This document shows, in pieces, positions 23,838-26,003 of a stretch of 64,000 nt of DNA (position 1 is its first letter; each line of letters begins with the position of its first letter). Made by a program: the position numbers and the translations under genes. This stretch comes from Bacteroidota bacterium (GTDB lineage Bacteria; Bacteroidota; Bacteroidia; 2-12-FULL-35-15). The DNA is taken from NCBI GenBank assembly GCA_947449315.1, contig CANFRC010000009.1, forward strand, positions 1 through 64,000. The letters run 5' to 3'. Below the pieces are notes generated by a model. It was not told the DNA's origin and did not search any database. It was given only the letters and a program-made list of their open reading frames with translations.

Positions 23838-24518
23838 ATGGATGACATTATTTTAAAACTTAAAGACGCACAGTTAAAAGCATGGCAACTGATTTCTGTT
23901 GCTGAGCAAAAAGGCTTTATTACCGCTGGTCAAACCGAGAAAGAGCTCAATGAGAATATCTATCAATTAGCAAAAGAACTTTTCGGCATAAAAAAATTCT
24001 GGCACAAACGTATTGTCCGCTCCGGAAAGAACACCTTATTCCCTTACAAAGAGAATCCAGAAAATTTAACATTTCAGAAAGATGATATTTTGTTTTTCGA
24101 TTTAGGTCCCGTTTTCGAAGATTGGGAAGCAGATATTGGCGACACCATTGTTTTAGGTGATGATCCTGCTAAAATTAAATTAAAAAAAGATGTAAAAGAG
24201 GCATTTGAGACCGGAAAAAATTATTTTAAAAGTCATCCTGGAATTACGGGTTCAGAATTGTATTCCTTTACATGTGCGTTGGCTAAAGAATACGGATGGA
24301 GCTACGGAAACGAACATTGTGGACATCTGATCGGGAATTTTCCACACGAACAATTATTAGGTGAAGAAATCAAAAATTACATTCACCCCGATAACATTCT
24401 TCCGATGAATACACCAGACAAATTCGGCAAACCAAGACACTGGATCTACGAAATTCATTTCATTGATAAAGAAAAACAAATAGGAGGATTTTTTGAGCAG
24501 CTGCTAACAATCGATTAG
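23838..24518 (+). CDS. M24-family metallopeptidase (aminopeptidase P-like fold)
   Basis: A 226-residue cytoplasmic protein with the pita-bread fold. All five metal ligands are in place: Asp88 (FFDLGP), Asp99 (EADIGD), His163 (HCGH), Glu205 (IYEIHF) and Glu220 (GGFFEQ). The 11-residue spacing of the two Asp residues matches methionine aminopeptidase and prolidase. It lacks the N-terminal creatinase domain of full-length aminopeptidase P. Substrate unknown; X-Pro dipeptides are a reasonable guess. It is convergent with the DUF58 gene, 2 bp apart. Confidence 0.87.
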   Translation: MDDIILKLKDAQLKAWQLISVAEQKGFITAGQTEKELNENIYQLAKELFGIKKFWHKRIVRSGKNTLFPYKENPENLTFQKDDILFFDLGPVFEDWEADIGDTIVLGDDPAKIKLKKDVKEAFETGKNYFKSHPGITGSELYSFTCALAKEYGWSYGNEHCGHLIGNFPHEQLLGEEIKNYIHPDNILPMNTPDKFGKPRHWIYEIHFIDKEKQIGGFFEQLLTID

Positions 24519-24520
24519 CA

Positions 24521-25471
24521 TTATATCAACTTGTTTCTTTTGATAAGATATGGCATCAGCACTTGTTCAAACCCTTCATGAATATCTGCCTCTACAAATT
24601 CTATTTTATATTGACCGCACTTAAGCATTAATTCCTTTTTATAAGCAGCCATTTGCGTTAAATAATTTTCTTTTACTTCATTCGGATTTAATTTCACTTC
24701 TTCTGCTGTCTCCATGTCTATAAAACGATATGGACGATTTTCAAAATCAAACTCAAGCTCCTTTTGTTTATCCACCACATGAAATAAGATCACTTCATGC
24801 TTGTTGTGTTTTAGATGCTGAAGCGCAGAGAACAATTCTTCGGAACCTGCTTGTCCGGCAGGCAGATTCGCTTTTGAATCCATCATATCACTAAAGATCA
24901 TCACCAACGAACGTCTGTGAATATTGTCCGCTATCTGATGCAACGCCTGAATAGCAGATGTCTGTTTATGCACCTTTACATCATGTGGCTGTATCATTTT
25001 CTCCAATTCATGATACAACATTTTATGATGAAGTGAGCTCGACTTGGCTGGTGTATGAAGCTCCAACGTTTCCGAAAAAATACTTAAACCAACAGCATCA
25101 CGCTGTCGCTTTAAAAGCTCGATCATTGCAGCAGCAGCGTAAACGGAGAATGTTATTTTATTCTGCTTTACACTTTTGCCATCAGGAATAGGGAAATACA
25201 TGGATGACGAATCGTCTATAATCAACTGGCAACGAAGATTGGTTTCCTCCTCGTATCGTTTGATAAATAATTTTTCGGTGCGACCAAATAATTTCCAATC
25301 GATATGCTTTGTCGATTCTCCTTTATTATACAAACGATGTTCTGCAAACTCAACACTAAAGCCATGGAAAGGGCTCTTGTGTAGACCGGTGATAAAACCT
25401 TCCACCACTTGTTTCGCAATCAACTCTAAATGAGTAAAAGGCTGTAAGGGTTGCTGATTGATCGTTTCCAA
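24521..25471 (-). CDS. DUF58 (vWA-like) protein with a palindrome-encoded insert
   Basis: A 316-residue protein of the DUF58 family, which usually pairs with a MoxR AAA ATPase. Visible features are HIDWKLFGRTEKLFIKRYEEE, then the vWA-like metal-binding start DDSSSM, and IFSDMMDS. A seven-residue LPAGQAG stretch (encoded near 24845-24866) interrupts the loop after SDMMDSKAN. No ATG exists at the N-terminus: TTG at 25471 (then ETINQQP) is chosen, because an upstream TTG at 25501 lies in the tail of the thioredoxin terminator. No moxR gene is adjacent. Confidence 0.83.
   Translation of the reverse strand: METINQQPLQPFTHLELIAKQVVEGFITGLHKSPFHGFSVEFAEHRLYNKGESTKHIDWKLFGRTEKLFIKRYEEETNLRCQLIIDDSSSMYFPIPDGKSVKQNKITFSVYAAAAMIELLKRQRDAVGLSIFSETLELHTPAKSSSLHHKMLYHELEKMIQPHDVKVHKQTSAIQALHQIADNIHRRSLVMIFSDMMDSKANLPAGQAGSEELFSALQHLKHNKHEVILFHVVDKQKELEFDFENRPYRFIDMETAEEVKLNPNEVKENYLTQMAAYKKELMLKCGQYKIEFVEADIHEGFEQVLMPYLIKRNKLI
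24847..24865. repeat. Small GC-rich palindrome inside the DUF58 gene
   Basis: CTGCTTG (24847-24853) and CAGGCAG (24859-24865) pair through one G-T, around TCCGG. It is much more GC-rich than the gene and is translated as LPAGQAG. I recall similar short inserts in other Bacteroidota proteins; this is memory, not a search. Confidence 0.6.
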
Positions 25472-25501
25472 ATGAATAATAATAAAGGTGACAAAAAACA
25501 A

Positions 25502-25530
25502 AAACAGTATACTTTTCTTGTATACTGTTT
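25502..25530 (-). terminator. Terminator of trxA
   Basis: AAACAGTATAC (25502-25512) pairs exactly with 25520-25530; on the minus strand it is followed by a T-rich run. It lies 20 bp after the thioredoxin stop. Confidence 0.9.
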
Positions 25531-25550
25531 ATAGTGCAATGTTTTAAGGA

Positions 25551-25868
25551 TTAAAGTAACGCTTTTAATTTAGCGTCTAATACTGCTTTGGGAACTGCTC
25601 CTACTTGTTTATCTACCACTTGTCCTCCTTTAAAGAAAAGGATAGTAGGGATATTACGAATACCAAACATAGCAGAGATATTTGCATTGTTGTCAACATT
25701 TACTTTACCAACAACTGCTGTATCGCCATAGTCTTTTGAAAGTTCTTCAACTACCGGTCCAACCATTCTACATGGTCCGCACCATTCAGCCCAAAAATCC
25801 AATAATACTGGTTTAGTTGACTTTGCTACTAACTCTTCAAAGTTAGCATCTGTGATTTCTATTGCCAT
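25551..25868 (-). CDS. trxA: Thioredoxin
   Basis: A 105-residue cytoplasmic disulfide reductase. The active site WCGPC has Cys30 and Cys33, with the cis-Pro in RNIPTILFF and the FKGGQ turn after it. Length is normal. It supplies electrons to ribonucleotide reductase and other reductases in the known pathway. It has its own promoter at 25926-25957 and its own terminator, so it is probably monocistronic. Confidence 0.97.
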   Translation of the reverse strand: MAIEITDANFEELVAKSTKPVLLDFWAEWCGPCRMVGPVVEELSKDYGDTAVVGKVNVDNNANISAMFGIRNIPTILFFKGGQVVDKQVGAVPKAVLDAKLKALL

Positions 25869-25925
25869 TTTTTTAAAAATTAAATTGTGAATTATAAATA
25901 CTAAATTTTTATTTCAATTGAACCA

Positions 25926-25957
25926 TAAAGATAGAATTGTAAGTCCATAATGACAAA
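25926..25957 (-). promoter_or_regulatory. Promoter of trxA
   Basis: On the minus strand, TTTG (25954-25957), 20 bp, then TATCTTTA (25926-25933), one base off the -7 consensus. It is 57 bp upstream of the trxA ATG. Confidence 0.6.
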
Positions 25958-26003
25958 CGATTTGCCAATTTGTTTTTTGTGACAGACTGACACTGTTTGT
26001 CTT

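Follow-up and report, generated by a model that had tools for sequence, protein, structure and literature searches.

The locus and its palindrome

The window (the whole stretch of DNA analysed, 64,000 nt) is taken from contig CANFRC010000009.1 of the Bacteroidota bacterium assembly GCA_947449315.1. It contains an ORF for a DUF58/VWA-like protein that matches Pfam PF01882 (DUF58, E 1.1e-31), in which residues 213-219 of the 326-aa translation read LPAGQAG. The first-pass annotation had taken these seven residues for the in-frame translation of a palindrome; the palindrome is indeed present, and its host is confirmed as a DUF58 gene. The features, in window coordinates, are:

24521-25501, minus strand: host gene, DUF58/VWA-like protein, 326 aa from the first TTG (ORF list, Pfam)
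24846-24866, plus strand: inserted 21-bp palindrome CCTGCTTGTCCGGCAGGCAGA, as read from the letters; the minus strand gives LPAGQAG; 28 of the 30 loci read are shorter by exactly these 21 bp
24847-24853, plus strand: left hairpin arm, 7 bp long in the window copy (8 bp in the consensus), from folding
24859-24865, plus strand: right arm of the hairpin, from folding
24867, plus strand: first target base 3' of the insert, T (flank counts)

The ORF is listed from the TTG at 25501, and the start methionine of its homologues aligns with the second TTG (25469-25471), which by this alignment is the likelier start. No function was found for the DUF58 protein, and region 24000-26000 gave no Rfam match.

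The window copy is a slightly mutated version of the family consensus CCTGCCTGTCCGGCAGGCAGG. It is predicted to fold into a hairpin of 7 bp closing a loop of 5 bases (-4.2 kcal/mol, z -1.4, with 19 of 200 shuffles folding as well), and the consensus into an 8-bp hairpin (-8.8, z -4.0, matched by none of 200 shuffles). A 20-mer pattern allowing up to 3 mismatches matches the window once and none of 100 shuffles, which is more than chance. The earlier description of a GC-rich insert in an AT-rich gene is fair, but the contrast is modest, with a GC fraction of 0.44 in the 100-bp block holding the palindrome and 0.27-0.42 in blocks elsewhere in the gene. Its placement in an exposed loop is not demonstrated: the AlphaFold2 model, which shows LPAGQAG as a coil linking a strand to a helix, is too poor (mean pLDDT 38) to place a loop.

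Copies in the same genome

Because the window copy is mutated, a search with its exact 17-mer returns a single place in its own genome. The 20-base pattern with up to 3 mismatches returns six distinct places, the window site included, and its reversal none. All six lie inside ORFs of at least 268 aa, which their translations identify as DUF58, PheT, LepA, HldD, a methyltransferase and a GFO/IDH-type oxidoreductase, the identities of PheT, LepA and HldD being confirmed by solved homologues. These unrelated genes keep their frame and read the element as LPAGQAG, PACPAGR or ACLPDRQ, in agreement with the proposal of a mobile mini-repeat that tolerates coding positions. The methyltransferase-like gene (L006, contig C4 142181-142201) holds the element together with what reads as a degraded tandem second copy, SLSDRQACLPDRQ; the methyltransferase-like gene of genome G017 (L030) holds one element, at a different position.

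Occupied and empty sites

A protein search with DUF58 covered 59 genomes including the window's own (G000), all of which matched, and 30 loci, the own locus among them, were read. The site is filled in G000 and G003, at the same base, and empty elsewhere, so that the reading as an insertion holds. Comparisons were made for four genes, with 30 loci fetched per gene out of 59 or 36 genomes searched; the own locus included, filled sites number 2 for DUF58, 2 for HldD, 1 for LepA and 1 for PheT. In all four the site spans 36 nt in empty alleles and 57 nt in filled ones, and the inserted 21 bp are CCTGCCTGTCCGGCAGGCAGG on either strand, exactly in LepA and PheT and with 1-2 changes in the HldD and DUF58 copies of G000. 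No target-site duplication is seen at the four genes, where filled minus empty equals the 21 bp of the element, a difference that could hide one base in the end letters. The AspRS of a relative (G035, L031) bears a similar insert, and HMMER alignments show solved homologues of PheT, LepA, HldD and AspRS to lack 6-8 residues at the site or close by.

Several insertions are shared at the same base by pairs of genomes: DUF58 by G000 and G003, HldD by G000 and G033, an oxidoreductase by G000 and G001, and another gene by G003 and G011. A genus tree was built from 27 of the 30 genomes in which three or more of the four genes were present (G008, G023 and G030 were excluded once a branch of length 6 had appeared). 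On this tree neither the DUF58 nor the HldD carriers are sisters, and two changes are needed for each gene. Grouping the carriers as one clade is rejected on the concatenation (p-AU 5e-6 for DUF58, 5e-19 for HldD); on the gene trees it is rejected for DUF58 (0.005) and not rejected at 0.05 for HldD (0.074). Such same-base recurrence in non-sisters is not predicted by rare random insertion. Either few sites tolerate the element and are hit repeatedly, or exact losses or recombination have occurred. Across the four shared sites the element is identical in 77 of 84 bases and the flanks in 951 of 1200; this higher conservation could reflect constraint on the sequence itself.

Distribution across genomes, phyla and viruses

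Allowing up to one mismatch, the 17-mer is found in 21 of 59 genomes and the 21-mer in 22 of 395 genomes of the phylum; both counts include the own genome, and the backward controls gave no match. The suspicion that such palindromes occur in Bacteroidota is correct as to presence there and too narrow as to range. The exact 21-mer, taking one genome per species, occurs in at least 117 stretches, and among the matches listed the record titles name Bacteroidota, Omnitrophota, Patescibacteria, Nitrospirota, Elusimicrobia, Margulisiibacteriota/WOR-1, Thermodesulfobacteriota, Chloroflexi, Verrucomicrobiales and Betaproteobacteria. Most of the 117 listed records are titled as MAGs. Carriers with isolate titles include Salegentibacter R32, Muricauda NBRC 101325, Ferruginibacter paludis, Subsaximicrobium wynnwilliamsii and Pedobacter changchengzhani, and the complete chromosome CP075895 carries the exact 21-mer. 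Polaribacter sp. IC066 and Chitinophagaceae LGM1 are further isolates with the element.

Copy number was surveyed in 42 genomes from 44 of the 117 listed loci, which were picked as carriers, and ranges from 1 to 30 per genome (reversed pattern, 0). In G474, 17 of 30 copies share a GGTAGG variant, as copying from a source would give. G349 has 23 copies on a single contig.

The exact 21-mer is also present in nine IMG/VR viral contigs (control, 0). One of them, IMGVR_UViG_3300044606_000228 (L365, L371), has three exact copies, one of which lies between repeat-like flanks just 5' of an ORF. In Mucilaginibacter RYN_323 (L101, L107, L151) and viral contig L368 the element occupies the same place within another repeat (ccctctaaa / tctcccccggt-ggggagac), and may therefore be carried along by that repeat.

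Reading frames and selection on the protein

Flanks and frames were counted for 120 copies in the 117 listed loci, with ORFs of 100 aa or more. By this count ORFs hold 75 of the 120 copies, where random positions would fall in them 83% of the time, and the other 45 lie outside; the element is thus depleted in genes but tolerated there. Among the 75, the frame giving LPAGQA is used by 37 (1 in 6 expected, p 7e-11), and it is the sole frame free of arginine, cysteine and charge. No in-frame stop occurs in 129 copies in ORFs, which is weak evidence because 110 of them have the consensus sequence, in which none of the six frames contains a stop. The recurrent variants GGTAGG, TGACC and TATCC create a stop in one frame; eight copies in ORFs are of a variant able to give a stop, and none has one, where about one would be expected. 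A stop-free design as a special adaptation is weakly supported: shuffling the same 21 letters leaves all six frames open in 61% of cases, and hairpins built from the same arm letters stay open in 53%, compared with 4.5% of random 21-mers of 36% GC.

Insertion target

The base 3' of the element is a pyrimidine in 113 of the 120 listed copies (C 78, T 35, G 5, A 2), and likewise in all six copies of the own genome; the base on the 5' side is T in only 10 of 120. For a de-duplicated count, copies with the same near flanks were dropped, leaving 117; here ORFs run from stop to stop, so that ORF counts differ from those of the 120-copy set. The pyrimidine follows 74 of the 80 copies located in ORFs and 36 of the 37 others, and is therefore not a coding effect. 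No flanking tetranucleotide is conserved among the 120 listed copies.

Insertion into other hairpins was assessed at 80 of the 117 listed loci, with sites having a second copy-like sequence in the flanks left out, which gave 78 sites. Six insertion points fall within a stem of at least 7 bp, compared with 1.4% of random positions (p 0.001, for a threshold chosen after seeing 5 to 9); the other 72 lie outside any hairpin of 7 bp or more, which counts against a mobile hairpin as the explanation.

Search for a mobilizing enzyme

Y1/RAYT transposases are the known movers of REPs, a link discussed in PMC3733652, and are the best candidate family. Three family searches over 14, 11 and 16 genomes (G349 in two) gave 88 Y1 loci, not every match being included. 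A copy of the element at up to 1 mismatch lies within about 1.5 kb on either side in 1 of these 88 loci, versus 0.91 expected by chance placement, a figure that rests on copy numbers from the 17-mer and 21-mer searches and on rounded genome sizes. Y1 matches are present in 15 of 16 carrier genomes of one family search, and absent from the copy-bearing G000, G011, G241 and G476 (the last with 30 copies), some genomes being incomplete. With no excess of copies at the 88 loci and no Y1 match in the own genome, Y1/RAYT is not supported as the mover, and the search yielded no mobilizing gene.

Weaker copies, with 3 and 4 mismatches, lie near two Y1 genes of G349 and by reading are located in the next gene or within a different repeat; the Y1 genes of this genome (L261, L267) adjoin palindromes of their own, AACCCAATTTCTTAAAGAAATTGGGTT and GTAGCCTCAACCTTTAGGTTGAGG, unrelated to the element. 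A further hint, in which a copy lies some 310 bp away from the single Y1 match of G049 (L045), reads as an insertion in a hairpin repeat found more than once next to the gene. Among the loci with two or more copies, one stretch (viral contig L371) was read for an autonomous element bounded by such copies, and no transposase stood out by eye.

Comparison with known repeats

Rickettsia palindromic elements (RPEs) are Rickettsia-specific palindromic repeats of 105-146 bp that lie, and are kept, in frame in conserved protein genes (PMC2229807). The present element resembles them in being a palindrome added in frame to conserved genes and missing from the homologues, but measures 21 bp (seven codons) in all four genes and occurs across phyla. 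REPs are 20-40 bp long and mostly intergenic, with intragenic examples in O. terrae, R. conorii and others (PMC3733652). The element is like the GTAG- and CGTC-tagged REPs in size, hairpin and intragenic copies, but more than half of its listed copies, and all six in the own genome, lie in ORFs; the flanks of the 120 show no conserved tetranucleotide such as GTAG or CGTC (GTAG occurs only inside a variant stem), and copies are no commoner at the 88 Y1/RAYT loci read than chance placement gives.

Bacterial MITEs (Correia/NEMIS, RUP, ERIC) are likewise small non-autonomous repeats, but are longer (70-300 bp; PMC3733652) and are tabulated with target duplication (PMC2229807), of which the element shows none beyond the one base that its end letters could conceal; it therefore differs from a classical DDE-moved MITE.

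We conclude that the element shares its kind, protein-coding palindromic repeats, with intragenic REPs and RPEs, and not its family, because length, tag, Y1 link and cross-phylum identity differ. Its codon-sized length, missing tag tetranucleotide and spread over phyla set it apart, coding palindromes as such being already known from Rickettsia RPEs and intragenic REPs. Ogata (2005) and Suyama (2005) reportedly described palindromic repeats with coding potential in Wolbachia and Methanocaldococcus, a likeness drawn from titles cited in PMC2229807. Similar peptides presumably occur in proteins of candidate-phyla genomes. In the open-licence PMC literature no paper was found for the LPAGQAG peptide or the DNA strings of the element, which is also named in no title or abstract start found there on REPs or RPEs.

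Interpretation and alternatives

The best overall explanation, to which we assign a probability of about 0.7, is that LPAGQAG is the translation of a non-autonomous mobile 21-bp palindrome, and to this extent the first-pass interpretation is supported as largely right. Neither of the two outcomes that the annotation named as refuting it, seven residues in every homologue or a palindrome without further copies, holds. The comparison of filled and empty sequences indicates that the element almost certainly spreads by insertion, and an enzyme acting in trans quite probably moves it. The element would copy itself to new places with the aid of this enzyme, adding at each site a whole number of codons without a visible target duplication, and selection on the protein would then retain the insertions that the fold tolerates. 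Movement would most likely proceed as a single-stranded hairpin, a route suggested by the absence of target duplication, the oriented one-base target preference and some excess within other hairpins; a single-strand step as such we put at slightly under even odds. Insertion without target duplication fits HUH chemistry, and with an oriented one-base target this leads us to favour an HUH-like or other single-strand enzyme as the mover. A more specific formulation is tentative and rather easier to doubt than the single-strand step: that this hairpin, among the smallest mobile DNAs, inserts 5' of a pyrimidine without target duplication, is moved by neither a Y1/RAYT nor a target-duplicating transposase, crosses phyla, and does well in genes because it is seven codons long and free of stops in six frames.

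Old inherited insertions, made patchy by repeated exact loss through excision or recombination with empty alleles, would account for the same-base insertions in DUF58, HldD, the oxidoreductase and one more gene. This reading is unlikely: it requires several exact losses, two changes are needed for DUF58 and for HldD, a single carrier clade is rejected in all but the HldD gene tree, and the other phyla are left unexplained by it alone. A little less likely again is an ordinary REP moved by a Y1/RAYT (HUH) transposase that was lost or missed in some genomes. REPs of like size exist, also within genes (PMC3733652), and most carrier genomes of one search have a Y1 match, but copies are no more frequent at Y1 loci than chance placement predicts, the Y1 genes of G349 carry different palindromes, four copy-bearing genomes have no Y1 match, and the flanks are without a conserved tetranucleotide. 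The missing target duplication would suit such HUH chemistry.

If the palindrome were no selfish element but a protein- or DNA-binding site that is maintained (an uptake sequence, a terminator or a nucleoid site), this would explain the identical sequence across phyla, the slightly higher conservation of the element than of its flanks at the four shared sites and the 45 copies outside called ORFs. This reading is nevertheless improbable, given the presence in so few genomes of the phylum, the irregular copy number, the essential-type genes hit and the four mapped sites empty in nearly all relatives read. Least probable by far is an assembly or contamination artefact of metagenome bins: the prevalence of MAG titles would suit it, but copies occur in strain-titled records and in a complete chromosome, in-frame placement is seen, and orthologous sites are found in separate bins.

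The element supplies many natural, exactly bounded seven-residue insertions in important proteins (tRNA synthetases, LepA), and with them a ready means of testing for insertion-tolerant loops; the identical 21-mer across phyla points to a broad-range mobilizing activity, of which the literature searched gave no description. Stretches reading LPAGQAG, ACLPDRQ or PACPAGR become recognizable as possibly element-derived, which bears on annotation and alignment.

Related palindromes

Tandem pairs of the element occur. Several genomes also contain palindromes that are related to it yet distinct, such as CCTGCCCGTCTGGCAGGCGGG and CCCGCCTGCCGGACGGGCAGG (L098, L200, L208), and these may represent sister families.
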